From: Actinomycetota bacterium
Lineage (GTDB): Bacteria; Actinomycetota; Actinomycetes; Nanopelagicales; Nanopelagicaceae
Assembly (NCBI GenBank): GCA_009699205.1
Contig: WLOP01000009.1
Span: 1 to 55,699, forward strand
Length of the DNA: 55,699 bases
Direction of reading: 5' to 3'
The translations under genes and the position numbers were made by a program. Positions 11,546 through 27,015 of the stretch are shown in pieces. Numbering within the stretch: the stretch's first letter is position 1; each line of letters begins with the position of its first letter. The notes under the pieces were generated by a model. The model searched no databases, was not told the DNA's origin, and saw only the letters and a list, made by a program, of their open reading frames with translations.

Positions 11546-13327
11546 ATGCTGAAACATGACGAACTCCGTGATGATGTTCTGGTCTGCTCCTTTTATACAG
11601 ATGATGACTTCTATCGGGGACATGCCAAGCGCTTACAGGTGAGTTTAGAGAAACTTGGAATTGAAATTGTCCTCCGTGAGATCGTTAAACAACCAGGCGA
11701 AAACTGGGCTCAACTATGTCGCAAGAAAGTTGGCTTTATTGCTGAAGTCTGCGCAGCAAATCCAAATAAGAAAGTTTTTTGGATTGACGTAGACTGCGAT
11801 CTCTTTGAAATTCCTGATTATGTAATGAATTTCTCTGCCGACATAGTTGGCTTCCAACGTGGGTTCAGCACGCCGATGAAGATTGGTTATGCCACCCGCA
11901 CCCGTTTCTGGGAACCATGCTTCTGGGGAATTAACACAACCCCTCAAGCGCGAAAAATGATTGCGGATGCTCATGCTCTTGAGGAAAAATCAACTCTCAC
12001 TGCGACTGACGACTATTTCTTTGAAGAAGCCTGGCGTGCTAACTCTACAAATTTGAGTTTTCAGATCATTCCTTCGAGTGGAGTTATTGGTAAAGGCCGC
12101 CATTCCGAACTTTCACGAAATGCTTTCTTCTATTTTGGTTCAAGTGGCAATGTTGCAGAATTCAAAGGGAAAGTGCAACAACACTCAGGTGGCGATTATC
12201 GGGCACCTTTTAATCCTCGAAAAATTGCTCTTCGATATGCAAAGAAAGTGGAGAGGAGGCTTTCTAATAAGACTTCTTTCGTGCTTCGTGCTTTCGTTGA
12301 TGGCATTGGCATTACAGGACTTCTCACCGCTAAAGGTGCCAATGAGAAATCTCCTAACTCTGAGGCAATTTCCGGCTTCTTGCGAAGAAGCCTTAAGACC
12401 GATAGCGGCCTAACGGTAAAAGAAATTGAAGATTTCAAGGCACAAACAATTCTTAACCCTGCTGAACGCTCTTCTTTACGAGCTGCTGAAACTTATCTCG
12501 CGTATAGCAGCCGCAAATCAAATGAAGAATTTGTCTTAGCTTGGTGGCCAAGGCCATTCCCGGGAAATTTCGGGGATTGGTTGAGTCCATATATTTTTAG
12601 CCACTACACAGATAAGAAGATTGTTTTCCAGAATCCCTCCCGCCGTGCACATAAAAAGCACATCATCGCTATCGGCTCAATTGGGCGATTCATCAAGAAG
12701 AACTCGGTAGTTGTGGGTACAGGCATCAGCAGCCCCGAGAACAAGTTGCAAAAGAAGGCTCACTACATCTCGCTCCGAGGTCCAATTACCGCTGAATTAC
12801 TTGTTGAATCCGGTGGGCCCCGCGTGACAAGTTTTGGTGATCCAGCGATTGTCTTATCTCGAGTATTCCCAGTTTCGCGCTCAACCACGAATGGCCGTGT
12901 TGCATTTATCCGCCACCACGCTCACCGCCAACTACCTGTTAATCTCACGGAAAATATGGATGAGATATCGGTTCTCCTCTCGCACCCCACTGAAATTGAA
13001 GAGTTTCTTCGCCAACTGAATTCTTATGACTCTGTTGTCACAAGCGCAATGCATGTATTTATCACCTGTCAAAGTTATGGCATTCCATGCGCCCTTATTA
13101 AGTTTGAACAGTTCAAAGAAGCGGTTCACGGAACGGGAATCAAATACCCTGACTACTCCCTCGGTGCTGGCCTAGACGAGGTAAATCCTCACAGCGTTGC
13201 GTTGGACTTTAGATCGATTGATTTTGCTCCTCTCACTTCCGTGCAAACTCCTTCTAGCGCCAAAATGGATGAGGTAGAGAAAGCAATTAGAGACGGTTTA
13301 GCACTTTTCGATAAGAAGAAGAAATGA
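11546..13327 (+). CDS. Two-domain protein: glycosyltransferase-like N-terminus, polysaccharide pyruvyl transferase C-terminus
   Basis: 593 residues. The first ~200 resemble a GT-A nucleotide-sugar transferase: VLVCSFYTDDDFYRG at the start and a DxD motif in KVFWIDVDCDLF (D81, D83). After a linker, residues ~330-560 match polysaccharide pyruvyl transferases: WWPRPFPGNFGDWLSPY, the GTGISSPE loop, ISLRGPITAELL and a late VVTSAMHVFITCQSYGIP. The family adds pyruvate ketals to surface or wall glycans. No signal peptide, so cytoplasmic glycan assembly is expected. The stop overlaps the next gene by four bases (ATGA), starting an operon through 14875. Confidence 0.78.
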   Translation: MLKHDELRDDVLVCSFYTDDDFYRGHAKRLQVSLEKLGIEIVLREIVKQPGENWAQLCRKKVGFIAEVCAANPNKKVFWIDVDCDLFEIPDYVMNFSADIVGFQRGFSTPMKIGYATRTRFWEPCFWGINTTPQARKMIADAHALEEKSTLTATDDYFFEEAWRANSTNLSFQIIPSSGVIGKGRHSELSRNAFFYFGSSGNVAEFKGKVQQHSGGDYRAPFNPRKIALRYAKKVERRLSNKTSFVLRAFVDGIGITGLLTAKGANEKSPNSEAISGFLRRSLKTDSGLTVKEIEDFKAQTILNPAERSSLRAAETYLAYSSRKSNEEFVLAWWPRPFPGNFGDWLSPYIFSHYTDKKIVFQNPSRRAHKKHIIAIGSIGRFIKKNSVVVGTGISSPENKLQKKAHYISLRGPITAELLVESGGPRVTSFGDPAIVLSRVFPVSRSTTNGRVAFIRHHAHRQLPVNLTENMDEISVLLSHPTEIEEFLRQLNSYDSVVTSAMHVFITCQSYGIPCALIKFEQFKEAVHGTGIKYPDYSLGAGLDEVNPHSVALDFRSIDFAPLTSVQTPSSAKMDEVEKAIRDGLALFDKKKK

Positions 13328-14097
13328 TTTTCGCAAGCAAACGCTTATATGAAGCTTTTAAGCTTCTCTTCCCGCCTGGAAGATTTAGATATCTTCTAGT
13401 GGGATTAGTTCTTCTCGCAGCAATTATTTCTTTGACCGAAATGCTTGTAGCTAAGCTCTTCTCTACTATTGTGCTGGAATCTCATAAAGGTGATACGCAC
13501 GCCTTCATCAAGAACTCGATTCTCTTCTTTGCTGTTTTCTTGATCACTCGAACTGCTCACTTCGTTCAGAAGGTTTATCGCGTTAGCGTTTTTGATAAAG
13601 CATTTCTATCTTCCGAAACTAAAGTTGCCAGGCTTGCAGAAAGTTGGCGTTGGGCTTTAGCTTTTGAACTAACTTCAGTGCTAACTTTATTGACGCAGTT
13701 AATCGTGATTTCTCTCTATTTTGTCTATATGAATCCTCTCATGGGGCTAATGAACTTAACCTTCTCTCTTTTGGTAATGCAATGCTTAGGGTTTCTTTTC
13801 AAGCGGCAATTAGCCTCACAGCTTGGTTTTGTTGAAAAGAAGAAGAATAGAGAGCATGTTGAAACATCAGTGCGTGTCGCCAGTCGTATTCGATCCGGTG
13901 AAATCGGTGCGCTCATAGCAGGTATCGGCATGCTCTTCGTACTCGCGGCTCTTCTTGTCCTTAGTTATAAGAACGTCATTACCGCTTCAAACACCATAGT
14001 CTTCTTCTTTGGCATCAGAATGCTCAATCACAGCCTTCAATCAATATCTTCAGGGCTCATGCGTTTTGCTAGGGCAAGTGCTAACAGTGACGAGTAA
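13324..14097 (+). CDS. Orphan ABC-exporter-like transmembrane domain without ATPase
   Basis: 257 residues with about six hydrophobic segments (e.g. YLLVGLVLLAAIISLTEMLV near 24, SILFFAVFLITRTAHFV near 66, and FVLAALLVLSYKNVIT near 200). The order and the HFVQKVYRVSVFDKAF coupling-like region resemble the membrane half of a type I ABC exporter. There is no Walker A, signature or Walker B in this frame, and the next gene is a glycosyltransferase, so the ATPase half is absent. It overlaps the preceding gene by 4 bp. It may be a diverged flippase component that works with an ATPase encoded elsewhere. Function not assignable with certainty. Confidence 0.6.
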   Translation: MIFASKRLYEAFKLLFPPGRFRYLLVGLVLLAAIISLTEMLVAKLFSTIVLESHKGDTHAFIKNSILFFAVFLITRTAHFVQKVYRVSVFDKAFLSSETKVARLAESWRWALAFELTSVLTLLTQLIVISLYFVYMNPLMGLMNLTFSLLVMQCLGFLFKRQLASQLGFVEKKKNREHVETSVRVASRIRSGEIGALIAGIGMLFVLAALLVLSYKNVITASNTIVFFFGIRMLNHSLQSISSGLMRFARASANSDE

Positions 14098-14875
14098 TGA
14101 AAACGATTTAAACAGTGGCGAAGAGGTTTTAACTTTTGGTTTTTCAACTCTAGCTCAGCGCTATGAAGATATCGTTCTGCCTGAAGCTAAACCTTTTCAA
14201 GAAATCTTGATTGTGGTCCAGAACCCGACTGGCCTTTCCATTAATCTTCATTCGGAGCGAGAAGATATCCGAGTTGTTGAGCTCAAGAGTCTGGGAGTTG
14301 CCAAGAGCCGCAATGTTGCCATTTCGCAGGCTCGAGGGCGTTACATGATTTTCGCTGATGATGATGTTACTTTCAAAAAAGATGGCTTGATTGAGGCGTT
14401 GGAATATTTTGAAGCCAATCCAGATTGCACTCTTATTCTTGGCAAGACCGTAGATGAACATGGGCACCCACGAAAACGCTATCCGGTAAAGCACGAAAGA
14501 TTGACTCGTTACAACAGCGCTCGTGCCGGAACTATTGAAATGATGATCCGTATAGAGGCAATCCGAAGTGCTGGAATTACATTTGACGAGAATTTTGGTG
14601 CAGGGGCTGAAAATTTCTTAGGTGATGAATATATTTTTATATCTGATTTAGTAAAGAAGGGGTTGCGAGCTGATTACCTCCCAATAGTTCTTGCAGAACA
14701 TCCTGCAATAAGTTCGGGAAATGTCTGGGAAACCGAAAGGGACTTAAAGGTACGGGCACAAGTATTTAAAAGAGTTTTTGGAAAATGGGCTTTTTTTATT
14801 CGTATTGCGCTAGTTATTAGACAAATCCCGCGTGGGTTAAGTATTTCAAGGGCGCTCTTTTTCATAAAAGGTTAA
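14087..14875 (+). CDS. Glycosyltransferase family 2-like protein
   Basis: About 262 residues from GTG at 14087, which overlaps the end of the preceding gene by 11 bp; the frame stays open to 14009 but that start would bury 89 bp in the neighbour. It shows the GT2 pattern: AKSRNVAISQARGRYMIFADDDVTF (nucleotide-sugar site with DDD) and a later GDEYIFISDLVKKG segment that corresponds to the catalytic acid region. The middle (AGTIEMMIRIEAIRSAG) is typical of surface-glycan GT2 enzymes. It is the last gene of the glycan operon. Donor and acceptor unknown. Confidence 0.75.
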   Translation: MTSNENDLNSGEEVLTFGFSTLAQRYEDIVLPEAKPFQEILIVVQNPTGLSINLHSEREDIRVVELKSLGVAKSRNVAISQARGRYMIFADDDVTFKKDGLIEALEYFEANPDCTLILGKTVDEHGHPRKRYPVKHERLTRYNSARAGTIEMMIRIEAIRSAGITFDENFGAGAENFLGDEYIFISDLVKKGLRADYLPIVLAEHPAISSGNVWETERDLKVRAQVFKRVFGKWAFFIRIALVIRQIPRGLSISRALFFIKG

Positions 14876-14962: not shown

Positions 14963-15001
14963 GTGTATTCCAGCAGATCTGGAATATGTATGAACTTATA
15001 A
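14963..15001 (+). other. Possible leader ORF with overlapping hairpin before the aminotransferase
   Basis: GTG at 14963, 8 nt after AGGAG, opens a 12-codon frame (about MYSSRSGICMNL) ending TAA at 14999-15001, out of frame with the aminotransferase and overlapping its first ATG (14986). A perfect 7-bp inverted repeat, ATTCCAG/CTGGAAT with a 5-nt loop (14967-14985), ends exactly at that ATG. The best ribosome site here therefore serves the short frame, not the gene. It could be a translational switch, an operator, or chance. Confidence 0.35.
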
Positions 15002-16398
15002 AAATGCATACCAATGTCAACCATTCAAAAACATTTCGCTCAACACCTACTCATTCAAGGCCTCTGTCAGAAACAAAGTTAAGCGCTCTACTCGATCAAG
15101 AGTGGGCCCGTTTTAAAGATGGCACCACAGCCTCAAAGGATGAAAGCAAATTAGCAGTTGGTGTGCTGCCTTTAGGAGTTCCCTCAAGTTTCCAACATTG
15201 GGATCCCTATCCAATCTCCATTGTTTCGGCGCAAGGCGCCTGGATGACAGATGTAGATGGGCGCCGATTGCTCGACCTTTCAATGGGTTTCGGAGCAATG
15301 CTCGTAGGCCATCTCAATCCAGATGTCGTCAACGAAATCAAAGCGACACTTGAGGTCGGAACGCTCTTTGTTACTCCTTCGCCTATCTCTCGAGATGCGG
15401 CTCAACGAGTCTGTAAACGCTTCGCAATCGATCAGGTGAGATTCACAAACTCTGGCACCGAAGCCACTATGTATGCCGTACGTCTGGCAAGAGCTTTCAC
15501 AGGTAAGGGCGCGGTAGTGAAAATTGAGGGTGGCTACCACGGTAGCTATGACCCTCTGATGACTTCAGCAAAACCTTCATTGGATAAAGCTGGATCGGCC
15601 GAGGAGCCAACTCCTGTCTATCAGGACGGTTCAGTCTCTGGAGAAGTATTTGTCGTTCCTTATAACAACCTCGAAGCGCTCGAAAAAATATTCCGGAAAT
15701 CTGCTACCGACATTGCCTGCTTTATTCTTGAACCAGTTCTTGAAAACTTAGGAATCGTCCTCCCAGATGCTGGATATCTTGAGGGCGTCCGCGAACTCTG
15801 CGATCAACATGGCGTTGTTCTCATTTTTGATGAAGTTAAAACTGGACTTACTGCAGGGCCACAAGGCGCGGCACAACGTCTTGGTGTTCAGCCAGATCTT
15901 ATTTGTTTAGCTAAATCTATTGGCGGCGGAGTTCCGTTGGCTGCCTTCGGTGGCAAACAGAAATATATGGATGCACTTAGCGATGGACGCTTTGCACACT
16001 TTGGTACTTTTAACGGAAATCCATTGGCTATGGCTGGTATCCGTGCCGTTGACAATATTTGTACAACGCAAGCACTTGAACGTGCAGAATCGTTTAACCT
16101 TCAAGCCCTTGAGCGAATCAGCAGGATTATTGAAGAGTATGAACTTCCTGCTCATACTGTTGGTTTTGGTGTGAAAGGTTGCGTCACTTGGTCACCAACT
16201 CCAGTACGTAACTATCGCGATTACAAAGCCACAGATTTCACAATTGCTGAGCTCTCTTGGCTTTGGTCGCTCAATCGCGGAATCATCACGCCTCCAGGGT
16301 TAGATGAGCAATGGCTCATCAGTTTGGCTCACGGCCAAGAGGAGATCGATATTCTCGTTGAGGATTTCCGTCTGCTCGCCGTGGCACTAAGGAGCTAA
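14986..16398 (+). CDS. Class III aminotransferase, glutamate-1-semialdehyde aminomutase-like
   Basis: 470 residues of PLP fold type I. Recognisable are LLDLSMGFGAMLVGH, the phosphate-binding FTNSGTEATMYAVRLARA, GYHGSYDP, the cofactor Asp in IFDEVKTGL and the Schiff-base lysine in LICLAKSIGGGVPLAAFGG, ending with GTFNGNPLAMAG. It resembles the GSAM branch but its N-terminus lacks the standard HemL opening and it is ~40 residues longer, so it is more likely a GSAM-like transaminase than HemL itself. Start choice is uncertain: ATG 14986 or ATG 15004. It precedes the LacI regulator by 49 bp. Confidence 0.78.
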   Translation: MYELIKMHTNVNHSKTFRSTPTHSRPLSETKLSALLDQEWARFKDGTTASKDESKLAVGVLPLGVPSSFQHWDPYPISIVSAQGAWMTDVDGRRLLDLSMGFGAMLVGHLNPDVVNEIKATLEVGTLFVTPSPISRDAAQRVCKRFAIDQVRFTNSGTEATMYAVRLARAFTGKGAVVKIEGGYHGSYDPLMTSAKPSLDKAGSAEEPTPVYQDGSVSGEVFVVPYNNLEALEKIFRKSATDIACFILEPVLENLGIVLPDAGYLEGVRELCDQHGVVLIFDEVKTGLTAGPQGAAQRLGVQPDLICLAKSIGGGVPLAAFGGKQKYMDALSDGRFAHFGTFNGNPLAMAGIRAVDNICTTQALERAESFNLQALERISRIIEEYELPAHTVGFGVKGCVTWSPTPVRNYRDYKATDFTIAELSWLWSLNRGIITPPGLDEQWLISLAHGQEEIDILVEDFRLLAVALRS

Positions 16399-16447: not shown

Positions 16448-17473
16448 ATGGCAACCAACAAAAAGGTCGATGCGACTATTGATTTAGTCGCCAAATCAGC
16501 TGGGGTTAGCCGTGCGACAGTTTCGCGCGTTGTTAACGGAAGCGCCAAGGTCTCACCTGAGACCGAGAAAGCTGTTCGCCGCGCCATTGCAAAACATAAT
16601 TTCACACCTAACGTTAATGCTCGTCGCCTTGCGGGAGGTCGCAGTGGTTTAGTCGCATTAGTTCTTGAAGAGTCGAGTGAAGAGTTCTTCCTCAACCCAT
16701 TTTGGGGTTTTGTTGTTCAAGGATTTACATCAGCAATTACCGATGCCGGCATGCAGGCACTTCTCCTGATTCGACCAAAAACTGGAACTGAAGATTCACT
16801 CTTTGAATCCTTACGAGTTGCACAAGTCGACGGTATGGCGCTATTTAGCTGGCACCGACCAGTAAAGAGTTTCGAGAAATCAATTCCAGCAAATATGGCA
16901 GTTGTTTTCGGCGGCGACCTAGGTGGATCTGAAAAATTCGCATACGTCGACGTTGACAACGTTAAAGGCGGATATTTAGCAACAAAACACCTGATTGCGC
17001 AAGGTTGCAAGAATATTGTGACTATTACCGGAGATTTGAAACTGCAATCCGGGCGGGATCGTCTTGAAGGATTTGAAAAAGCCATGACTGAAGCGGGGCG
17101 CACAATCACATCAGTCGCAATTCTCAATGGGGACTACTCGATGTCTCGCGGAGAAGCTCTTACGCGCGAACTCATCAAGAATAAGGTTAAGTTCGATGGG
17201 ATTGTTGCAGGCAATGACCTCTCTGGTGTTGGTGCCGTCAACGCTTTATTGCAAAAAGGTTTCAAGGTCCCAGAGGATGTAAAAGTTATTGGGTTCGATG
17301 ATTCACCTGTGGCTGCCCGCAGCAATCCCGCGCTTTCAAGTATTTATCAACCCACTCGCGAATTAGGTGCAGAAGTGGCTCATACCTTGATTGCGATTCT
17401 TGCTGGTAAGAAGCCAGAGAAGAAGATGTTGCCAGTAAAGTTAGTGGTACGAGCTTCTACTGCTAAGAAATAG
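16448..17473 (+). CDS. LacI/GalR-family transcriptional regulator of the beta-glucan locus
   Basis: 341 residues, standard for the family. The helix-turn-helix lies at ~residues 11-34 (VAKSAGVSRATVSRVVNGSA), followed by the hinge helix VNARRLAGG. The sugar-binding domain starts near 70 (LVALVLEE) and includes VVFGGDLGG, DNVKGGYLATKHLI, GRDRLEGFEKAM and VIGFDDSPVA. Such proteins repress glycan genes until an oligosaccharide binds. It is convergent with the GH1 gene (4 bp apart). Five identical 14-bp near-palindromes typical of this family lie in the neighbouring control regions, so it is the obvious candidate to bind them. The effector sugar is inferred to be a beta-gluco-oligosaccharide. Confidence 0.9.
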   Translation: MATNKKVDATIDLVAKSAGVSRATVSRVVNGSAKVSPETEKAVRRAIAKHNFTPNVNARRLAGGRSGLVALVLEESSEEFFLNPFWGFVVQGFTSAITDAGMQALLLIRPKTGTEDSLFESLRVAQVDGMALFSWHRPVKSFEKSIPANMAVVFGGDLGGSEKFAYVDVDNVKGGYLATKHLIAQGCKNIVTITGDLKLQSGRDRLEGFEKAMTEAGRTITSVAILNGDYSMSRGEALTRELIKNKVKFDGIVAGNDLSGVGAVNALLQKGFKVPEDVKVIGFDDSPVAARSNPALSSIYQPTRELGAEVAHTLIAILAGKKPEKKMLPVKLVVRASTAKK

Positions 17474-17477
17474 TAAA

Positions 17478-18860
17478 TCAAGCGCCATTGTTGGCGATGA
17501 TCTCCTTGTAACGTTTGGCGCTCATTTTCGGAGTACGTTCCATGGTCTTGTAATCGACATAAACTAAACCAAAGCGCTTGCCGTACCCTTCAGCCCATTC
17601 AAAATTATCGAGCAAGGACCAAGCGAAATAACCTTTAATAGGAACTCCCGCTGCTGCCGCATCATAAAGTGATTCCACATGGCCAGATAAATACTTGGTC
17701 CGCGCAAGGTCATTAATGTTTCCATCTGCCTCTTTGATGTCGTCATAAGCTGCACCATTTTCGGTCACCATGATGTATCCGAATTGCGGCCAAGATGTGT
17801 GAACTCTCTTTAATACCTTTCCAAGGCCTTTTGGTGTTACTACCCATCCCATCCCGGTCAAAGAACCTGCTAGATCGGCTGGAGGTGAGGTGTCGGCTCG
17901 CTGTGGGAATGGTAAAAAACCCTCATCTAGGAAAGGTTTATCTTCCGGACGAGGACTTCGAATAAAGCTATCGCTGTAATAGTTGACGCCTAGAAATTCA
18001 TTCTGGCACTTTAAAAGCTCGTCATCCCCCGATTTCAGTACAGATGTAAGTGCCTCTCCATAGTAAGCGAGAATATTTTCAGGGTATTTTCCTGTTGTTA
18101 ACGCATCAATCCACCATCGGTTCAAATTGGAATCCATAAGAGCTGTTAATTCAACGAGATCTTTATCCTCTGGGTTCTCCAAATTGTGGTTGGTCATGTT
18201 TACCGTTATACCTACATGCGCCTCTGGTTGCACACTCTTAATCGCGCGTGTACCTGCAGCATGAGCAAGGGCTGTGTGATGAGATGCGGCAATTGCTAAT
18301 TTGTAATCCTTCTTGCCGGGGGCATGCACTCCGTTTGAATAACCTAACCAAGAGACACACCAAGGTTCATTTAAGGTAATCCAACTGTTGATGCGATCAC
18401 CGAATGCTTCTGCGCATGCTTTCGCATATTTTTCAAAAGCATCTACCGTGGCACGGTTAGCCCAGCCACCCGCATCTTCCAATTTCTGTGGCAAATCCCA
18501 GTGATAAAGAGTGACCATCGGTTCGATGTTGGCAGCGAGAAGCGCATCAATTAATTTGTTGTAAAAAGCAAAGCCTCGCTCTTCGCGCACTTCATCACCA
18601 TTAGGAAAAAGTCGCGGCCAAGCAATCGAGAAGCGATAGGCCTTGACGCCGAGGTTTTTCATGATTGCAATATCTTCTGGATAGCGGTGGTAGTGATCGC
18701 ACGCACTATCCCCAGTATCGCCATTAACAACCTTGCCAGGAGTCCTACTAAATGTGTCCCAAATGCTGACTCCGCGGCCGTCTAAGTTCGCAGCTCCTTC
18801 GATTTGGTAACTCGATGAAGCAGTACCCCACAGAAAATCTGATGGCAATTGCGAACTCAT
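17478..18860 (-). CDS. GH1 beta-glucosidase, cytoplasmic
   Basis: 460 residues, full-length GH1. It starts with the family signature FLWGTASSSYQIEGA. The acid/base is E165 in TLNEPW and the nucleophile is E367 in VTENGA; LDNFEWAEGY near the C-terminus forms the aglycone pocket. No signal peptide, so it cleaves imported beta-linked gluco-oligosaccharides to glucose. The gene is divergent from the cytoplasmic GH16 and shares with it an operator 74 bp upstream (18934-18947). Initiation: GGAG about 10 nt before the ATG. Confidence 0.93.
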   Translation of the reverse strand: MSSQLPSDFLWGTASSSYQIEGAANLDGRGVSIWDTFSRTPGKVVNGDTGDSACDHYHRYPEDIAIMKNLGVKAYRFSIAWPRLFPNGDEVREERGFAFYNKLIDALLAANIEPMVTLYHWDLPQKLEDAGGWANRATVDAFEKYAKACAEAFGDRINSWITLNEPWCVSWLGYSNGVHAPGKKDYKLAIAASHHTALAHAAGTRAIKSVQPEAHVGITVNMTNHNLENPEDKDLVELTALMDSNLNRWWIDALTTGKYPENILAYYGEALTSVLKSGDDELLKCQNEFLGVNYYSDSFIRSPRPEDKPFLDEGFLPFPQRADTSPPADLAGSLTGMGWVVTPKGLGKVLKRVHTSWPQFGYIMVTENGAAYDDIKEADGNINDLARTKYLSGHVESLYDAAAAGVPIKGYFAWSLLDNFEWAEGYGKRFGLVYVDYKTMERTPKMSAKRYKEIIANNGA

Positions 18861-18933
18861 ATACCTAGCGCTCCATCCGTGGCTCTTTTGTGACTTTGAA
18901 AGTTATTGGAGTTTATCCATATTTCACGCTGAT

Positions 18934-18947
18934 TGAAAGCGGTTTCA
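18934..18947. promoter_or_regulatory. LacI-type operator, site 1
   Basis: TGAAAGCGGTTTCA, a near-perfect palindrome around CG. It lies midway between the divergent GH1 and GH16 starts (73-74 bp from each) and overlaps the likely -35 region of the rightward promoter, whose -10 is TAGATT (18962-18967). It is identical to the four other sites in the locus. Confidence 0.8.
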
Positions 18948-18961
18948 CGGGAAATTAAGGG

Positions 18962-18967
18962 TAGATT
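18962..18967 (+). promoter_or_regulatory. -10 element of the cytoplasmic GH16 gene
   Basis: TAGATT 7 nt before an ATG (18975) that opens an 18-codon frame overlapping the GH16 start at 19021. The GH16 ATG has a GGAAGCGG ribosome site about 10 nt upstream. The operator covers the matching -35 position, consistent with repression. Confidence 0.45.
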
Positions 18968-19020
18968 TAAGGCTATGAAGCAAAGTGCGTGGGGAATATA
19001 TGCAGGAAGCGGGTTAGCGA

Positions 19021-19809
19021 ATGGCTCCTGAGAGCCCGGTGCTTTCCTGGTCAGAAAGTTTTGATGAGCCCACCTTGTCACCTCAAAGATGGAACTTCGA
19101 CGAAGGTGATGGGTCAGCCCACGGCCTTGTGGGTTGGGGTAATAATGAACTTCAGTTCTACACCGAAAATTCTTTAATTGTTAATAAAGGATTGAAAATC
19201 AGAGCTAGTAAGCAAAGCGAGGATACAACTCTTCAATGCTATTACGGCCCCGCCAAATGGAGCAGCGGGAAGATTCACACCGCCAATAAAGTTGCATTCA
19301 AATACGGACTCATAGAAGTTCGGGCGCAAATGCCAAAAGGAAAAGGAACTTGGCCAGCGCTCTGGTTGCTGGGAAACTCTCTTACTGAAGGAATTAAATG
19401 GCCGTTCTGCGGTGAGATAGATATTTTTGAAGGTGTCGGCAATAAACCTCACACTGTAAGAGGAACCATTCATGGCCCCGAATACTTCGGTGAAGAGGGC
19501 ATCACTCACGCTTTTGATTATTCCGACGAACTTTCATCTAGCCTTCATACTTACGCTATTTCCTGGGAAGAGAATCGAATCGCTTGGCTCTTTGATGGCC
19601 AACCATATTTTTCTCTCACACCGGATGATCCACGCCTAGTTGGCAAAGTATGGCCTTTTAATGAGAGCCATTACTTAATAATCAACTTAGCTATCGGCGG
19701 TTGGTTTGGTGGTGAGGTCGATCCCGACTTAACTACTGCCGAACTAAAGATTGAGTGGATACATCATTCGAGGATAAATGGAGTTGGCGAAGTTTTAACT
19801 AGTGCTTGA
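19021..19809 (+). CDS. GH16 beta-glucanase lacking a signal peptide (cytoplasmic laminarinase-like)
   Basis: 262 residues covering only the GH16 jelly-roll. The catalytic motif is GEIDIFE (nucleophile E132, acid/base E137), the ExDxxE beta-bulge form typical of laminarinases rather than lichenases. Other markers are WNFDE, GWGNNELQFYT, KGTWPALWLLG and LIINLAIGGWFGG. A TAG stop sits 2 codons before the ATG, so no export signal can be added upstream. It probably shortens imported beta-1,3-gluco-oligosaccharides ahead of GH1. It ends INGVGEV like its relatives, and overlaps the convergent GH16 gene by 11 bp. Confidence 0.88.
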   Translation: MAPESPVLSWSESFDEPTLSPQRWNFDEGDGSAHGLVGWGNNELQFYTENSLIVNKGLKIRASKQSEDTTLQCYYGPAKWSSGKIHTANKVAFKYGLIEVRAQMPKGKGTWPALWLLGNSLTEGIKWPFCGEIDIFEGVGNKPHTVRGTIHGPEYFGEEGITHAFDYSDELSSSLHTYAISWEENRIAWLFDGQPYFSLTPDDPRLVGKVWPFNESHYLIINLAIGGWFGGEVDPDLTTAELKIEWIHHSRINGVGEVLTSA

Positions 19810-21187
19810 TTACTTCGCCTACTCCATTAATTGAATAAACGCGGATGTAATCAAAGGCAGTGGTGGCAGAAGTTACAGATGAATCTACTGCCCCTGGAAA
19901 ATTTCCACCCATAGCTAAATTGACGATGAGGTAAAACTCGTGGTCAAAAACCCAGTCATCATCAGTCTTTTCAACGGTTTTATAGGCAACCCCATCCAAA
20001 TACCATGTGATGTGATCTGGCAACCAATCGATTGCGTAAGTGTGAAATTCACTAGAGAAACCATTCGGCATTTCTACGGTTCCTCCACGCCCTAAACCAC
20101 CCGAACGTATGCCATGCAAAGTTCCATAATTAGTAGTAGGTCGCCCGCCCATTAATTCGGTAACATCGATTTCTCCACAGACAGGCCACCAATGTTTATC
20201 GATATCTGCACCCAGTAACCAGAAAGCGGCCCACGTTCCTTGGCCAACAGGCCCTTTTATGCTGGATTCAATTCGTCCGTACTTAAAACCTACTTGACCT
20301 TTTGTGACAAATTTAGAGCTTATCCATTCACAAGGTGTCCCGTAATAGCAGGAGAAGACATTTGCTCCTGAGCGTGCGGCATTAATAGTTAAGACTCCTG
20401 ATGAATCAATCTGAGATTGTGTTTCGGTATACCACTGGCGTTCACCGTTGCCCCAACCTTGGTTATCGAAAGCTGTTCCATCGCTATTTTGTGGAACCCA
20501 AATCTTGGGGTCCACCGTATTTGTTGCAGATGCATTGAATTCATCAGACCAGATCAGTGAATAGTTATAAACAGTTTTTGGTATAAGAATAGAATTAGAA
20601 TTTTTCTTAAGTGTTGTGAAACCTTTTGCAGTATAAGAAGCTTGAACGCTTATCTCTGTTTCTGCATCTGATGATGTAAGAATATAAGTCGCCGAGTGGG
20701 CACCTGGTATATCGAATATTCCGTTAAACCATTGATAAGTAACTTTGGCAGAAGTTGGGACCATAGCCCCTGATGAAACTTTCAGCGCTTTATGTTGATC
20801 ATCTTTAAAATCAATCGTTAGCTCGCCGGCAACAAATACTTGCCCCAAGGTGACTATGTTGGATTTTCCTTGTAGAGATGTTCCATCTGGGAAAGTAGCA
20901 GTTTCAATGAATTGCAGTGACTTACTTCTTTGTTTGGTAGTGAAGACATAAGTAGTCTTGGTAGCGCCGCTTATGGCCTTGCCGCTGAGAAGCCATTTAT
21001 AGGTACTTTTTGCTGTGCTACTCCAACGTGCGGGCGTCGCGAGCACTGTCATCCCCTTGGCTATTGGGGCGATTGAGGGAGCCGTCACCATGGATGACGA
21101 GGTTGCCGACCCTGACGAAGGGATCAGGGTCGACATGGCCAGCGCTGCTATCAATGCAACGCTGGCTCTCCTCATCAATTTCTCCAT
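19799..21187 (-). CDS. Secreted GH16 beta-glucanase with N-terminal Ig-like modules
   Basis: 462 residues: signal peptide (~1-29, RRASVALIAALAMSTLIPSSGSA), then about 170 residues in two beta-rich modules of a repeated type (STYKWLLSGKAISGATKTTY and KVTYQWFNGIFDIPGAHSATY, both Y.W...G..I.GA...TY), then GH16 from ~205. Catalytic motif GEIDVTE (E339, E344). Substrate-side markers are GWGNGERQWYTE and GTWAAFWLLG. It ends YSINGVGEVIKH. The in-frame ATG at 21175 has GGAG at proper distance and may be the true start. Last gene of the SBP-malF-malG-surface protein-GH16 operon. Confidence 0.9.
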   Translation of the reverse strand: MEKLMRRASVALIAALAMSTLIPSSGSATSSSMVTAPSIAPIAKGMTVLATPARWSSTAKSTYKWLLSGKAISGATKTTYVFTTKQRSKSLQFIETATFPDGTSLQGKSNIVTLGQVFVAGELTIDFKDDQHKALKVSSGAMVPTSAKVTYQWFNGIFDIPGAHSATYILTSSDAETEISVQASYTAKGFTTLKKNSNSILIPKTVYNYSLIWSDEFNASATNTVDPKIWVPQNSDGTAFDNQGWGNGERQWYTETQSQIDSSGVLTINAARSGANVFSCYYGTPCEWISSKFVTKGQVGFKYGRIESSIKGPVGQGTWAAFWLLGADIDKHWWPVCGEIDVTELMGGRPTTNYGTLHGIRSGGLGRGGTVEMPNGFSSEFHTYAIDWLPDHITWYLDGVAYKTVEKTDDDWVFDHEFYLIVNLAMGGNFPGAVDSSVTSATTAFDYIRVYSINGVGEVIKH

Positions 21188-21209
21188 GGCGTTAAGTCGT
21201 TAACTCCGG

Positions 21210-22649
21210 TTATTTCACTACGACGGTAGAGGTGTAGCTCTTCCCATCGATAGTAATTTTCACGGTCTTTTTTCCTTTGGTAACCACATATTTAAGTACC
21301 TGGCTGGCACTTGTGATTGATGCACTTAGCCCAGCCTTAAGCCCAGTGATAGATACTGCAGCAGTTTTACCATTAGCGTTCTTAACGGTGATATTCATCG
21401 TGTACACCGTTTTACCTTTTACGGTTGCCTTAGTTGCTTTCGCAGTTACAGCAGGAACTAGAGGCGCTACCGGCACTCCATAGAAGTGGAATTCGACCAT
21501 GTCCGCGATATCTGTGGCTCCACCAGTAATCTCTGGGAAAATCTGGCTAAAAGTTCCGCCAGTAGTTGGGGCAGCTGTCAACGGAGTTGCAGGTTTTGCT
21601 TCACCATTCACATCTGTATTCTTAAGATCAAAGAGGACAAAACCAAGTGCATCGGTTGTGCCTTCAAGAAGCGCTTGGTCATTACCTTGTGTGGAATCTT
21701 TTGTAGCATCCGTGGCTGTCTTTCCATCTGTAATTGAGGCGTTAGAACCGCTATATGCCTTGTTCACATGCAACTTCACTTTTGTATTTGCAAGCGGTGT
21801 CTTGCCGTCATCACCAGTTACTTGGTAGACGAGAGTGAGCTTGGATCCCACTGGCGCATAGACCTGTCTAAAGTGCAGCCCTGGGGCGTACCAAGTATTT
21901 TCAACAGTAAATTTCTTCTCTAGATCTTCGCGATGGATTGAATTCGTATCGGTCAACCCTGGAGAAACTAACCGAATTGTTGGATGAGTTGCAGGAACAA
22001 CCTCTGGGCTAGAATCCGTGTAATAGTGGAATTCAGTGATGACAGAGTGATCAACCATCTGTCCAGCCACCTGAGGCAACATCTGTGAATGCAGATCTGT
22101 TAGGTCCCCATCAGGGAGTGTTGGATCAGTCAGTTTCGCTGGCTTCTTTTCGCCTAGTGGAGCTTTATCTAGGTCAATGATTGCAAAAGTTACGTTTCCA
22201 AATGCATCGGTTTTATGTGTCACATTCGCTTGATCCACAAGTTGCTTATCTACACCAGATGTGAAGGAATTATCAACCTGCAACATGGAAGTCGAGATGC
22301 TGTAACCTTTGTTAACACGCAACATCACGTCTTGATTAACCACTGGTTGACCGTTTTTATCGACTACATGGTAAGTGAGATTAACTGTTGATCCGATAGG
22401 AACATAGGCGCGTTGGAATACTAATCCCTCTCCGTACCACTTCATCGAAACCCAGTATTCACCCAGCGCTAAGTTCTTAGCTGAATCAGCTGTATTCGTC
22501 GCATCAAGCACAGGGCTGATAAGGGTGATTACGGCATCCTGGGGTGGAGTTCCTGCTGCGTGAGCAGGTACTAACCCAGTGCTGGCAATTCCAGTTGCTA
22601 GTGCAGTAGTTGCAACCACTGCCTTAACTTTCATCCAACTGATCTTCAT
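21210..22649 (-). CDS. Secreted protein with two copies of an unrecognised domain, candidate glycan-binding surface protein
   Basis: 479 residues: signal peptide (~1-32, ending AHAA), repeat 1 (~40-210), repeat 2 (~224-390) and an Ig-like C-terminal ~80 residues. Both repeats share LISPVL/LVSPGL, a Y.P.GS...L.Y.V strand pair, LRVNKGYS/LHVNKAYS, a late D..G.V.F strand and an EFHYY/EFHFY end. The same domain closes the protein at 31771. I do not recognise the family. It lies in the operon between malG (35 bp upstream) and GH16 (22 bp downstream). By position it may bind polysaccharide at the cell surface. No anchor motif such as LPXTG is visible. Confidence 0.75.
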   Translation of the reverse strand: MKISWMKVKAVVATTALATGIASTGLVPAHAAGTPPQDAVITLISPVLDATNTADSAKNLALGEYWVSMKWYGEGLVFQRAYVPIGSTVNLTYHVVDKNGQPVVNQDVMLRVNKGYSISTSMLQVDNSFTSGVDKQLVDQANVTHKTDAFGNVTFAIIDLDKAPLGEKKPAKLTDPTLPDGDLTDLHSQMLPQVAGQMVDHSVITEFHYYTDSSPEVVPATHPTIRLVSPGLTDTNSIHREDLEKKFTVENTWYAPGLHFRQVYAPVGSKLTLVYQVTGDDGKTPLANTKVKLHVNKAYSGSNASITDGKTATDATKDSTQGNDQALLEGTTDALGFVLFDLKNTDVNGEAKPATPLTAAPTTGGTFSQIFPEITGGATDIADMVEFHFYGVPVAPLVPAVTAKATKATVKGKTVYTMNITVKNANGKTAAVSITGLKAGLSASITSASQVLKYVVTKGKKTVKITIDGKSYTSTVVVK

Positions 22650-22684
22650 TGTGCGACCTTTCCCTAGTTGTTCATCTTGGATTT

Positions 22685-23530
22685 CTAACCTTTTACTGCT
22701 CCATCCATGACTCCGCTTACTAAGCGACGTCCTACAAAAATAAAGAGTATGAGCAATGGTGCGGTAGCTAAAAACGCTCCACCCATTTGAAGCGCATAAT
22801 CAAGTCCGTACATAGGCTTGAGTTGTGTGAGAGCTACCTGCAAGGTGAAGTGCTTGGGGCTTTGCAGAATAATCGTTGGCCACAGATAATCGTTCCACGC
22901 AGCTAAAAATGCGAATAGTCCTAAAACAAAGCTGCTTTGACGAATGATTGGTAGTACAACGCTCCAAAATATCCGTGGAACAGAAGCGCCATCAATGCTC
23001 GCAGCCTCCAATAACTCATTAGGCACTTGAGCATCAATAATCTGGCGCATCCAAAAAACACCAAAAGCCGTAACTAAGGCAGGGACGATAAGACCCAGAA
23101 GTGAGTCCATAAGGTGCATATTTCCGATGAGCATAAATAAAGGAATTATCCCGAGTTGGCTAGGCAACATCATCGTGCCGATAACAAATAGTATGAAAAA
23201 TCTTCTTCCTTTAAAATTAAGTTTGGCAAATGCAAAACCCGCAATTGCAGAAAAAATTACTTGTGCGCCAGCAATTGAGAGACCTACAATAAAAGTATTA
23301 CTTAACGCGCTCCCGAAGTAGACTCCTTCGGCATGCATCACTTTTTGGGCAACAATTAGGAATCTTCCACCGGGAACAAGTGATGGTGGACTCTTGGACA
23401 CCTCGGCGTTGGTATTAGATGCCACAACAAACATCCAATAGAAGGGAAAAATAGAGAGAAAAGTAATCACTGTCAGAAAGAAATAATTTATAGGTGAAAC
23501 TTTACGCCAGCGTGGAACCTTTTGGTTCAT
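22685..23530 (-). CDS. Sugar ABC transporter permease, MalG-type (CUT1)
   Basis: 281 residues with six membrane spans. N-terminal FLTVITFLSIFPFYWMFVVASN is typical of MalG-like permeases, and the EAA coupling loop reads ELLEAASIDGASVPRIFWSVVLPI (~165-190). The family forms the importer pore with a MalF-type partner. Its ATG overlaps the stop of the malF-type gene (ATGA, 23527-23530). Substrate inferred from linked GH16 and GH1 enzymes to be beta-gluco-oligosaccharides. No ATPase is encoded nearby. Confidence 0.9.
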   Translation of the reverse strand: MNQKVPRWRKVSPINYFFLTVITFLSIFPFYWMFVVASNTNAEVSKSPPSLVPGGRFLIVAQKVMHAEGVYFGSALSNTFIVGLSIAGAQVIFSAIAGFAFAKLNFKGRRFFILFVIGTMMLPSQLGIIPLFMLIGNMHLMDSLLGLIVPALVTAFGVFWMRQIIDAQVPNELLEAASIDGASVPRIFWSVVLPIIRQSSFVLGLFAFLAAWNDYLWPTIILQSPKHFTLQVALTQLKPMYGLDYALQMGGAFLATAPLLILFIFVGRRLVSGVMDGAVKG

Positions 23531-24504
23531 CGGGAACCTGCATCAGAGATTTTTCGCGTAATTAGAAAATTCACTGCAGAAATAATCATGACAATGAAAG
23601 TGATAACAATTCCGATCGCAGCTGCGTACCCATATTTATTATTAACAAACGCCTGGTTATAAAGGAATAAGGTAAGCGTAAGGAACTGCTTGCTTGAGCC
23701 TCCATCTGGAGCAAACTGTTGAGGTTCTGCGAATACTTGCAAACCGCCAATAGTGCCGACAACGATTACAAAGGTGATTGTGTTTCTTAACCCAGGAAGT
23801 GTTACATATACGAACTGCTTCCATTTACTTGCACCATCAACCGAGGCTGACTCGTACAATTCATCTGGGATCGCCAACATTGAGGCTAGGAATATCAAAG
23901 TGTTATAGCCGATCCATCGCCAAGTAATCATGGTTGCAATCGCAATATGGCTAGGGATGACACCTTCAATAAAATCTATATGGTGGCCAAGTCCAAAAAG
24001 GGTGAGGACATAATTGATCATTCCAAAATCGCGGCCAAATAACTGTTGGAAAACAATGGTAATTGCAATGACAGAGGTGATATTAGGTACCAAGAGAATC
24101 GTGCGCCAAAAAGACTTTCCTTTTAGGCGCTTGTTGCGCAATATTGCTGCAAATCCAATGGCCATAAACATCTGAGGAAAAGTGGAGAGCGCCCAGATAC
24201 TGAATGTATTTCGGATTGCCAGCCATAAATCCGAATCGTGTATCAAGTTATAGAAATTATGCAATCCTGCAAAAGTTGAACCACCCAGTGGATCCCATTG
24301 AAAGAAGGAGATGTAAACCGAGTAGATAACAGGTGCGAGTCCAAATACAAGGAACATAAAAAAGAATGGAGCTACAAAAAGAAAGCCCCAACGGCCATCT
24401 AAGGAGGCTACTCCAGGAAGTACCTTTGCCTCTTTTGGCTTCTTGTTTTTCCAAGGGGACAGAGGCGCTTTACGACGCCCCTGTCCACTCTTGGTTACAG
24501 ACAT
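23527..24504 (-). CDS. Sugar ABC transporter permease, MalF-type (CUT1)
   Basis: 325 residues. A basic cytoplasmic N-terminus (GQGRRKAPLSPWKNKKPKEA) precedes the first span (FLFVAPFFFMFLVFGLAPVIY). The EAA loop reads ELYESASVDGASKWKQFVYVTLPGL near residue 215. It pairs with the MalG-type permease in an importer. It lies 28 bp downstream of the binding-protein gene and overlaps the next gene by 4 bp, so the three are one transcription unit. Confidence 0.9.
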   Translation of the reverse strand: MSVTKSGQGRRKAPLSPWKNKKPKEAKVLPGVASLDGRWGFLFVAPFFFMFLVFGLAPVIYSVYISFFQWDPLGGSTFAGLHNFYNLIHDSDLWLAIRNTFSIWALSTFPQMFMAIGFAAILRNKRLKGKSFWRTILLVPNITSVIAITIVFQQLFGRDFGMINYVLTLFGLGHHIDFIEGVIPSHIAIATMITWRWIGYNTLIFLASMLAIPDELYESASVDGASKWKQFVYVTLPGLRNTITFVIVVGTIGGLQVFAEPQQFAPDGGSSKQFLTLTLFLYNQAFVNNKYGYAAAIGIVITFIVMIISAVNFLITRKISDAGSR

Positions 24505-24532
24505 TTCATCCCTATCTTTTTACTTTGGATGG

Positions 24533-25900
24533 TTATGGGTTAACAACTTTTTGGAGATCTTTCATTACTTGCTCCCATGATTTTGCTGAAGTCATTTTCT
24601 TAGCGGCTACCCGGCCTAATCCTGCCCCGAAGGCTTGATCGATTGCGCGTTGTAGTTTTCCTTCGAAGATTGGCTTCAGCTTCGTAACGCCTTCTGTATA
24701 AATCTTGCCGACAGGAGCGTTATTGAAGAATGCATCTTTGTAATTTAGTAGAGCGGCATCGTCATAAAGACTTGAAGCGGCGGGGAATAGACCGTATTTC
24801 TTAAATACGTAAAGCTCCTGAGCGGGCGCCAAATACCAAGAGATAAAGTCAAAAGCCGCTTGCTTCTTATCTGACCACGCCGGTACCGCTAACTGAGTAC
24901 CACCTTGGTTGCCTCCGCTTACTGGAAGATTTGCGATATCCCATTTACCTTTGGTATCTGGAGCTTGTCCTTTTATGTAATCCATCATCCAGGCTGGAGC
25001 CAAAATGGTGGCAAAAGTGCCCTTATTCATGCCTGTATTCCAGTCAGCGGTGTACTGACCGATACGAGTTCCAATACCTGCGGTGGTAGCTTTAATTGTG
25101 GTGTCCCACGCATTTTTAATTTGAGGATTGGTTGTGTAAATCAATTTACCTGCATCGGTACCGTTATTTTGGTAGTACTTAGCAGTTCCTTGGTTCAAGA
25201 TTGCTGCATAAATTGTTCCGACGTTATCTATGAAGCCCATTCCGGACTTCTTTTGAGTCGCGCTTAATTTCTTCATATATTTTTGCCCGGTTGCAATAAA
25301 TGCATCCCACGTCGGCCATAACTTGCCGACTGCTACACGATCTGTTGGTAAGCCCGCTTTCGCAAAGAGATCGACACGGTAGGCGACTTCAAGCCCGCCA
25401 ACATCTGTCGGAATACCGATAACGCTGTCGTTATAACCAACTCCGTGCTCCCAACGCCATCCGAGATAATCCTTTTTCATATCTGTTGCTGATTTACCGG
25501 CGACAATGCCACCGGCAACGTTTGCATCAGATGTATGCATCTGTCGCAAATCTTGGAAGCACTGTGGGTATGAGCGCCAGTAGCCAGAGTAGGAAACTTC
25601 AATCGCGACAACATCTGGAGGAGTTCCAAGGCGCTTTGTGCGAAGGTAATCAGCGCACGAGGTAACAAGAGCTGTGCCATTGAGTGGATCTAGATCCGAC
25701 TTCTTAATTTCTAATGTGATCTCTGGGTGCAAGACTTTGTATTGTTGAACTAGGTCACGTTGAATCACGTCACCGAAAGTCCAAATTGTAATTGTCATGG
25801 GTTCGGCAGCAGCTTTAGCTGGCGAAGAGAATATCCCCACTGAGACAAGGACGGCAGTACCTATAGCCAATGCCGATTTGGCGCTCCAACCTTTGCGCAT
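24533..25900 (-). CDS. Sugar ABC transporter extracellular solute-binding protein (family 1)
   Basis: 455 residues from ATG 25900, which has AAGGAG 6 nt upstream; the frame is open 23 codons further but without a ribosome site. A Sec signal peptide (MRKGWSAKSALAIGTAVLVS...SSPAKAAA) is followed by MTITIWTFGDVIQRDLVQQY, the standard start of a family-1 binding protein, and a late FDFISWYLAPAQELYVFKKYG. No lipobox cysteine follows the signal peptide, unusual for a monoderm binding protein. First gene of the five-gene transport/hydrolase operon, with an operator 90 bp upstream. Confidence 0.9.
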   Translation of the reverse strand: MRKGWSAKSALAIGTAVLVSVGIFSSPAKAAAEPMTITIWTFGDVIQRDLVQQYKVLHPEITLEIKKSDLDPLNGTALVTSCADYLRTKRLGTPPDVVAIEVSYSGYWRSYPQCFQDLRQMHTSDANVAGGIVAGKSATDMKKDYLGWRWEHGVGYNDSVIGIPTDVGGLEVAYRVDLFAKAGLPTDRVAVGKLWPTWDAFIATGQKYMKKLSATQKKSGMGFIDNVGTIYAAILNQGTAKYYQNNGTDAGKLIYTTNPQIKNAWDTTIKATTAGIGTRIGQYTADWNTGMNKGTFATILAPAWMMDYIKGQAPDTKGKWDIANLPVSGGNQGGTQLAVPAWSDKKQAAFDFISWYLAPAQELYVFKKYGLFPAASSLYDDAALLNYKDAFFNNAPVGKIYTEGVTKLKPIFEGKLQRAIDQAFGAGLGRVAAKKMTSAKSWEQVMKDLQKVVNP

Positions 25901-25989
25901 GCCATGCTCCTTTGGTCTTGAAGAATTCTGGACTAGCGTAGAACAACCTTCGGAGGAACCTTCTAGCAAAATAGGCTATTTGCTTCCTA

Positions 25990-26003
25990 TGAAAGCGGTT
26001 TCA
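25990..26003. promoter_or_regulatory. LacI-type operator, site 2
   Basis: TGAAAGCGGTTTCA, identical to site 1, between the divergent importer operon (start 25900) and the secreted GH16 gene (start 26098). A possible leftward -10 is TACGCT on the minus strand (25935-25940). The position allows one site to act on both directions. Confidence 0.8.
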
Positions 26004-26097
26004 CAGTATCGTAGTTAACTGTACGGGCGCCCACTTGGCAAGAGGGTTTCGGATAGGTCGTAGAGTTCCCTAGAGATTCCCCGACGAAGGAGGAGCT

Positions 26098-27015
26098 GTG
26101 GCACGAGTAAATCTGAGGCGAGTCATCGCGATCCCTGTGCTTGCTGCCCTCTCTGGGGTACTTCTCGTGGCGCCGCCAATTTCTGCCGGCGCAGCAACGA
26201 CGAAATACAAACTTTTGTGGGCCGATGAGTTCAATGCGAAAAAGGGAACCTTGCCGAGTTCTAAGTCTTGGGATTTCGACCTCACCAATGCTTACGGCTG
26301 GGGCAATTCCGAACTCGAGTACTACACCAAGAAACCGGGAAACATTTCAACAGATGGCGCTGGACACCTTTTAATTACCGCCAAAAGAATTTCTGATGTT
26401 TCGGGGATGACCTTTGGAACTGATCCAACTTCCGATCAAATCTTGAACTCATGTCCAGAGTGCCAATTCACAAGCGCCAAAATCAAGACGGCTAACAAAT
26501 TAGGTTTCTTTTATGGCCGAATTGAAATGAGAATGAAGAATGCCAGCGGAGTCGGAACTTGGCCAGCTTTCTGGATGTTGGGTGATGACATCCTTCATGG
26601 AAGTCTATGGCCCGAATGCGGCGAGATCGATATTTTAGAGACTCAAGGACGTCTACCCGAAATTGCTTCTGGCACTATCCATGGACCAAATATCGGTCCA
26701 AATGCTGGAGCGGGGTACGGTGGAAATTACAACAACTTAACTCCACTAAGCGATGGGTACCACACTTATACTTTTGATTGGAAAAAGAATCAGCTGGATT
26801 TCTTGGTAGATAACAAACTCTATTTAACAATTACTCCGCAATCAGTTTCACCGGGTCGTTGGGTTTTTAACCATGAATTCTTCTTGATTCTGAATTTAGC
26901 AATGGGTGGTTTATTTACAGGCGATATCGACCCCGCCTTAAACCAAGCACAATTATCGATTGATTACATCCGCTTCTACTCAATCAATGGCGTTGGAAGA
27001 CTTATAAAACACTGA
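26098..27015 (+). CDS. Secreted GH16 beta-glucanase, single domain
   Basis: 305 residues: signal peptide (~1-33, RRVIAIPVLAALSGVLLVAPP...AGAA) and one GH16 domain. Catalytic motif GEIDILE (E176, E181), beta-bulge type as in laminarinases. Other markers are LLWADEF, GWGNSELEYYT, GVGTWPAFWMLGDD and FFLILNLAMGGLFTG. The end is YSINGVGRLIKH, nearly the same tail as the GH16 at 19799. The start is GTG with AAGGAGGAG just upstream. Divergent from the importer operon across operator site 2. Confidence 0.92.
   Translation: MARVNLRRVIAIPVLAALSGVLLVAPPISAGAATTKYKLLWADEFNAKKGTLPSSKSWDFDLTNAYGWGNSELEYYTKKPGNISTDGAGHLLITAKRISDVSGMTFGTDPTSDQILNSCPECQFTSAKIKTANKLGFFYGRIEMRMKNASGVGTWPAFWMLGDDILHGSLWPECGEIDILETQGRLPEIASGTIHGPNIGPNAGAGYGGNYNNLTPLSDGYHTYTFDWKKNQLDFLVDNKLYLTITPQSVSPGRWVFNHEFFLILNLAMGGLFTGDIDPALNQAQLSIDYIRFYSINGVGRLIKH

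Follow-up and report, generated by a model that had tools for sequence, protein, structure and literature searches.

What does a protein predicted to fold like the membrane domain of an ATP-binding cassette (ABC) exporter, and devoid of the ATPase that drives such exporters, do between two genes for glycan synthesis? The question is raised by three overlapping genes at 11546-14875 (+) of contig WLOP01000009.1, from the 1.42 Mb, 96%-complete genome of an Actinomycetota bacterium of the family Nanopelagicaceae (assembly GCA_009699205.1); the window referred to below is the whole 55,699-nucleotide stretch analysed, positions 1 to 55,699 of that contig. The first gene (11546..13327, +) encodes a 593-aa fusion of a GT-A-type glycosyltransferase (GT) and a polysaccharide pyruvyl transferase (PPT), as assigned through Pfam, the predicted fold and the relatives. 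The second (13324..14097, +) encodes a 257-aa membrane protein with a predicted type IV ABC transmembrane domain (TMD) and no nucleotide-binding domain (NBD), a description drawn from AlphaFold, Foldseek, VIA and residue conservation. The third (14087..14875, +) encodes a GT2 glycosyltransferase, recognised through PF00535, its neighbourhood in the relatives and a reading of the sequence, with about 262 aa if counted from the GTG at 14087. The earlier note on this DNA had described three overlapping genes here, and the open reading frames (ORFs) confirm it: the fusion and membrane-protein genes share 4 nt, while the GT2 frame, open from a TTG at 14009 to 14875, likely starts at GTG 14087, which gives an 11-nt overlap with the membrane-protein gene. 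The three genes are presumably transcribed as one operon.

The answer favoured here, with a probability of roughly 0.45, is that the membrane protein is an ATP-independent flippase for a lipid-linked anionic glycan, an interpretation preferred over that of a scaffold for enzymes, and it is in any case the operon's own flippase candidate. The novelty of the locus lies in this membrane protein family, not in the pyruvyltransferase.

The membrane protein matches no Pfam family (E<=1) and no NCBIfam model (E<=0.1). Its AlphaFold model, obtained with 47 alignment rows (predicted local distance difference test score, pLDDT, 91.4; predicted template modelling score, pTM, 0.86), places an elbow helix at residues 2-15 and further helices at 20-55, 58-96, 103-136, 138-174, 181-215 and 221-255, and this predicted succession of an elbow and six transmembrane (TM) helices is the arrangement of a type IV ABC exporter TMD. 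When the model was compared with known structures, Foldseek returned 13 PDB chains at E<=0.001, every one a type IV ABC transporter, and 49 of its best 50 matches were taken as ABC proteins by their titles, the other (7ekl_A, E 1.5e-3) being labelled ‘Mitochondrial outer membrane protein’. VIA found 499 of 917 chains at Z>=8, and its best 50 matches were all ABC transporters by title, led by BmrCD (Z 18.0, 246 residues aligned, 3.1 A) and including MsbA (7bcw_A; Z 17.3, 252 aligned, 3.1 A) and PglK (6hrc_A; Z 16.2, 249 aligned, 3.6 A); helical bundles with Z up to about 13 can reflect a merely common arrangement, and the values obtained here are higher and cover the whole protein. The six-span, ABC-exporter-like protein without an NBD that had been read from the letters is thus borne out by the predicted fold. 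As TM4-TM5 also superpose, the protein is likely to form a domain-swapped homodimer. At 257 aa, against about 310 residues for the ABC TMDs on which it superposes, the protein offers a compact system for study; MsbA, for example, spans chain residues 7-317 (311 residue numbers) where 252 residues of the model align.

ABC exporters carry coupling helices at the TM2-TM3 and TM4-TM5 connectors. In the model these connectors (97-102 and 175-180) have only six residues each, and the coupling helices therefore appear to be gone; a profile alignment with six ABC TMDs, itself of low probability, puts the insertions of the ABC proteins at the same two points. Without coupling helices, a drive by ATP is hard to see. 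Over 61 distinct membrane-protein sequences, E39, R188 and E193 are identical in all 61, E115 is E in 60 and D in one, R76 and R232 are R or K in all 61, and Q125 and Q162 are Q in 60. As E39, K44, R76, Q125 and R232 sit inside hydrophobic stretches, the buried charges, read from the sequences, would suit an ion-coupled or anion-binding cavity.

The missing ATPase does not stem from a recent frameshift or from the decay of the gene. Among the 151 genomes of the same family, 32 hold the membrane protein, always as a stop-free frame of 257-328 aa, which is too short for an ATPase domain, so the search for a lost ATPase in close relatives that the earlier note had proposed ends with intact short frames and not one NBD. 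A scan of contigs gave 55 further loci, with L133 truncated after 50 residues; the titles of nine name Nanopelagicales, Nanopelagicaceae or Planktophila, those of most others only uncultured Actinomycetota, and the window probably comes from an acI-type freshwater actinobacterium. A motif scan that asked for both NBD motifs in a frame of at least 150 aa found no NBD-like ORF inside the operon in any of 58 loci; outside it there are 20 such ORFs in 19 of the 58 loci, 18 of them on the other strand. One locus, L092, has two co-directional NBD-like ORFs 2.9-3.9 kb off, and in L106 and L111 an other-strand NBD-like ORF lies only 48 bp away. In these last two loci the membrane protein is alone, without GT2, fusion or CDP-alcohol enzymes; its gene lies between an ATPase gene of the sugar-importer type and one for an aminotransferase, both of which run on the opposite strand.

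A draw of 396 genomes from the whole phylum yielded four matches to the membrane protein: the window genome, the genome G493 from another family, f9, and two weak ones from a single genus (E ~4e-4 and 5e-4), which proved to be full ABC exporters and are suggestive only among 396 genomes. Family f9 itself gave 3 matches in 120 genomes. In G493 the membrane domain is part of a 642-aa frame in which it is fused to a second PPT, and not to an ATPase; this PPT has 31% identity to that of the window (E 4e-52) and reads S-S-V-G for S-A-M-H and S-F-D-E-W for N-F-G-D-W, and with these motifs altered it is probably inactive. The gene directly adjoins that of a GT-A/PPT fusion, and a third protein of the cluster (780 aa) also has a PPT-like motif by eye (L149:6167-8095 and 12249-14591, both on the minus strand). 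As relatives share it, the membrane protein represents an established family, and it is not an ABC transporter by class, since the NBD is missing.

The C-terminal part of the fusion matches PF04230 (E=1.4e-11, aa 357-518, 45.3 bits against a gathering score of 25.3), with PPT homology that extends from about 303 to 590, and all 20 aligned fusion proteins match the same family; they comprise that of the window and 19 of 20 complete same-strand copies, whose identity to it is 49-57%. The N-terminal part has no Pfam family match and takes a GT-A fold in the predicted model, where the best structural match is the PBCV-1 glycosyltransferase 2p6w (Z 13.7, 179 aligned, aa 9-204), followed by alpha-1,3-galactosyltransferase, the blood-group enzymes and the glycosyltransferase domain of LH3. 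W79, D81, V82, D83, C84 and H503 are invariant in all 20 fusions, and D81-V82-D83 forms a DxD motif, so that predicted fold and motif together identify a GT-A domain. The model of the whole fusion is poor (pLDDT 64.9, pTM 0.51), worst in the C-terminal half with a pLDDT of 26-57 over 441-530, and its structural matches cover aa 1-208 only; of the GT-A/PPT fusion claimed earlier, the GT-A fold and the PF04230 homology stand, the match of the PPT by structure was not obtained, and the assignment of the C-terminal half is one of sequence. According to PMC10435577, phosphoenolpyruvate (PEP) is bound by H308 of CsaB and H339 of Pvg1p, and H503, in the motif T-S-A-M-H, is probably their counterpart.

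Complete same-strand copies of the fusion, of which the loci from the contig scan hold 20, are 590-622 aa long; a contig end truncates one more copy to 106 aa, and four opposite-strand copies have 578-585 aa. Within the same family it occurs in 14 of 151 genomes, near full length in 13 and at a contig edge in one. Seven of the 396 phylum-wide genomes match it, with the GT-A part covered only in the window genome and G493 and the PPT part alone in the other five; three phage records likewise match the PPT part only. The fused enzyme may serve for making pyruvylated saccharides. The proposal that the glycan anchors S-layer-like proteins finds no backing, given that there are no PF00395 (SLH) matches at E<=0.01 in the 96%-complete genome (a control search was positive in 4 of 14 genomes), and that the PPT, at 14.4 bits against the TIGR03609 equivalog cut-off of 213.1, is far from being a CsaB orthologue. 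The third gene had been read as a GT2 enzyme, and PF00535 agrees (E=2.9e-10, 40.8 bits against a cut-off of 23.3); its eight NCBIfam matches (EpsD, HpsN, TuaG and others) are all far under cut-off.

The partners of the membrane protein were tabulated for the 57 loci with a full-length copy (the window, L079-L132 and two f9 genomes). In 48 of them the first family gene downstream is that of GT2, and in three more a CDP-alcohol enzyme intervenes before it; the remaining six comprise two contig ends (L080, L092) and four loci without an adjacent GT2 (L106, L111, L116, L122). Upstream, a CDP-alcohol phosphotransferase is found in 42 of the 57, with the fusion also in the stretch in 15 of these, while the fusion itself takes this place in nine and no family member does so in six, three of which have a fusion gene on the opposite strand. 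All 14 same-family genomes with the fusion also hold the membrane protein, which occurs without the fusion in 18 of its 32 genomes; the link is one-sided, and the membrane protein has no exclusive tie to pyruvylation. The membrane protein and GT2 are the commonest pair, and the pyruvyltransferase and CDP-alcohol enzymes are variable partners. Of the reduced flippase for a pyruvylated glycan that had been suggested at the outset, the flippase is plausible only, and the CDP-alcohol enzyme upstream in 42/57 loci, against the fusion in 9/57, speaks against tying it to pyruvate.

The complete trio is a recurring unit, as had been supposed: besides the window it is present in the same-family genome G075 (L059), in the loci L093 and L104 of metagenome-assembled genomes (MAGs), in Streptomyces aidingensis (L130), in a Demequinaceae MAG (L114) and in two f9 genomes, and an Actinophytocola MAG (L122) has its first two genes. 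An extended cassette adds an NTP transferase, a 541-aa CDP-OH_P_transf/DUF5941 protein and often GDPD and a VanY-type peptidase. In the genus of the window, only 2 of the 21 genomes listed carry the membrane protein, and the island is therefore patchy. In a tree of the family, with several long branches and an arbitrary root from which no order of events is drawn, the rows labelled minimal (a label that took in L122 and G493, both without an adjacent GT2) are not one group and require three changes. The membrane protein has no plasmid match and, in a pattern scan, no relative among viral contigs; a plasmid- or phage-borne module was accordingly discarded, the phage records mentioned above matching the PPT part only.

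According to the favoured interpretation, the GT-A and GT2 domains would add sugars to a lipid-linked acceptor at the cytoplasmic face, and the PPT domain would place a pyruvate ketal on one of them with PEP as the donor. The 257-aa protein, as a homodimer, would then, without ATP, move the lipid-linked product to the outer face or admit it there, either driven by an ion gradient or as a passive flippase, and the overall product would be an anionic surface glycan; we infer the dimer, its substrate, the direction, the energy source and transport itself. In Paenibacillus alvei, pyruvylation was shown in vitro on a lipid-linked disaccharide, and Actinobacteria with pyruvylated teichoic acids that contain ribitol, glycerol or mannitol phosphate are known, as stated in PMC6801904. 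If pyruvylation acts on the lipid-linked precursor, a cytoplasmic set of GT-A, PPT and GT2 needs an exporter for its product, and the window genome has no match to PF01943 (Wzx-type), the search being confined to this one of the flippase families. The ATP-independent flippase is favoured because SbmA, an ABC TMD without a motor to which the protein is likened, runs the same reduced architecture on a proton gradient, according to PMC13316013.

Several observations weigh against this interpretation. Any one of seven ABC_membrane matches in the genome, with open frames of 527-669 aa, might instead be the flippase. The link of the membrane protein to ABC TMDs at the level of sequence is weak: hhalign gave a probability of 21% and E 2e-4 in global mode (controls 0.93 and 0.4) and of 9% and E 0.0037 in local mode (controls 0.2 and 0.41), and of 47 members a single one matches the Pfam family ABC_membrane (E 2.5e-4), while scores as good or better go to unrelated membrane families (Rost, 2.5e-4 in six members; DUF456, 2e-5 in two). 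A search of PDB sequences with the two family profiles returned nothing meaningful. The fusion is present in 27 of the 57 fetched stretches and missing from 30, so the substrate would not be defined by pyruvate. In the same-family loci L062-L064 the fusion and the membrane protein are adjacent with no GT2 family member beside them, and no GT2 was found in 16 kb around the G493 copy. These loci, with L106, L111, L116 and L122, rule out GT2 as an obligate partner; in L062, L063 and L064 the next gene encodes a protein of 685-690 aa which, by eye, resembles a polyphosphate kinase. The TM-PPT fusion of G493, finally, fits a scaffold as well, and the transport role suggested by the model is only plausible.

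Among the alternatives, the one that survives best, as a possible if doubtful explanation, is that the ABC-derived TMD transports nothing and acts as a dimeric platform, which recruits GT2 and either the GT-PPT fusion or CDP-alcohol enzymes to the membrane and the lipid-linked acceptor. It accounts for the G493 fusion, whose PPT lacks the motif histidine, for a membrane-protein gene that overlaps or nearly overlaps GT2 in most loci, for partner enzymes that differ between loci, and for the position of R188 and E193 (invariant) and of E115 and Q162 (nearly so) towards what, given the topology we infer, would be the cytoplasmic ends of the helices. However, the charges inside hydrophobic helices (E39, K44, R76, R232) exceed the needs of an anchor, and a near-complete transporter fold has been kept, which is more than an anchor requires. 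Should the scaffold be correct, a transporter fold would have been reused as an enzyme platform, which would still be of interest. Quite improbable is a pair resembling GtrA and GtrB, in which GT2 would make a polyprenyl-phosphate sugar and the membrane protein would flip this single-sugar donor; the frequent pairing of the membrane protein with GT2 is in keeping with it, but the eight NCBIfam matches of the GT2 include no polyprenyl-phosphate mannose or glucose synthase model, and no GT-C enzyme turned up beside the trio, where none was searched for. An ATP-powered half-transporter, whose partner would be a separately encoded ATPase or a second ABC half, is very unlikely: the ABC TMD fold and the seven ABC_membrane frames of 527-669 aa in the genome would allow it, but the predicted six-residue connectors leave little for contact with an NBD, so that the model already disfavours it, and the operon is free of NBD-like ORFs in 58/58 loci.

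In the window, a VTT-domain protein and a Rieske protein (Pfam) lie 5' of the trio and a class-III aminotransferase (14986-16398, Pfam) lies 3' of it; the closest NCBIfam models of the latter are glutamate-1-semialdehyde aminomutases, with scores under their cut-offs, and a class-III aminotransferase recurs near the cassette in many relatives, there on the other strand. The GC content is about 0.42-0.46 in the trio and about 0.44-0.48 in its flanks, a difference too small to argue for a foreign origin. Beside the glycan operon, 16448-27015 reads like a beta-glucan utilisation locus, with by-eye labels of a LacI-type regulator, a glycoside hydrolase family 1 (GH1)-like enzyme, three GH16-like proteins and a sugar ABC importer. 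Among the relatives, a 367-aa protein that recurs near the cassette (L047:6840-7943) has no Pfam or NCBIfam match, and by eye its first residues resemble a phosphate loop of the sulfotransferase type. The 541-aa protein (L046:4784-6409) combines CDP-OH_P_transf and DUF5941 with an unmatched N-terminus of 200 aa, and no mention of DUF5941 was found in the PMC literature searched. Seven loci (L084, L090, L091, L097, L105, L111 and L113) are titled ‘Bifidobacterium breve’, although their membrane protein belongs to the family seen in freshwater actinobacterial MAGs; they are probably mislabelled.

How, then, does the locus stand beside known systems? With the IPCT/DIPPS-type CDP-alcohol systems it shares, in the relatives, neighbour enzymes that match CDP-OH_P_transf and NTP_transf_3, the 541-aa enzyme having NF041135 as its best NCBIfam match at 78.7 of 580 bits; unlike in those systems, CDP-alcohol enzymes were not found beside the trio in the window, and the four CDP-OH_P_transf matches of the window genome are all away from it. 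The fusion agrees with the PF04230 enzymes CsaB and Pvg1p in its domain match (20/20) and in the histidine of the S-A-M-H motif, invariant in 20/20 fusions, and differs from them in being joined to a GT-A domain without a Pfam match. In comparison with MsbA and PglK, the predicted TMD fold is common over 248-253 residues (Z 16-17) and the substrate class is plausibly the same, whereas the membrane protein has neither NBD nor coupling helices and a TMD about 55-60 residues shorter; of the features of a type IV ABC exporter, the six-helix fold and the elbow helix are thus seen in the model, and the NBD and coupling helices are absent.

The closest analogue is SbmA. In PMC13316013, the SLiPTs (SbmA/BacA) are described as proton-driven proteins with a type IV TMD, conserved glutamates, TM0a/TM0b and neither NBD nor coupling helices nor elbow helix, and the loss of ATPase and coupling helices by an ABC exporter, yielding a secondary transporter, is documented there for SbmA-like peptide importers. 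The membrane protein has the predicted type IV fold, lacks NBD and coupling helices, and has conserved glutamates (E39 and E193 in 61/61, E115 in 60/61 with one D), candidates for a counterpart of the glutamate ladder that lines the SLiPT cavity. It falls outside that class, as it has an elbow helix, only six further helices, no TM0 and a glycan operon as its setting. PF05992 gave no match to the window protein (E<=1) and none in its own genome, and is absent among 25 of the 39 families listed for 47 members; SbmA is not among the best 50 Foldseek or VIA matches, which is no evidence against kinship. In the PMC literature searched, by titles and the starts of abstracts, no prior description of the module or of an NBD-less ABC-fold protein of glycan synthesis was found. 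A bolder and distinctly tentative proposal is that of a second lineage apart from SbmA/SLiPT, in which the TMD of an ABC exporter, rid of its ATPase and coupling helices, may have turned into a flippase for lipid-linked anionic glycans that stands alone and is either gradient-driven or passive; in several families of Actinomycetota it would usually be paired with GT2 and share operons with the pyruvyltransferase fusion, with CDP-alcohol phosphotransferases or with both. If true, it would provide streamlined freshwater actinobacteria with an ATP-free export of a charged surface glycan, and a family reduced like SbmA, yet of a different anatomy (with the elbow helix and without TM0) and set in a glycan context, would make the step taken by SbmA look repeatable.

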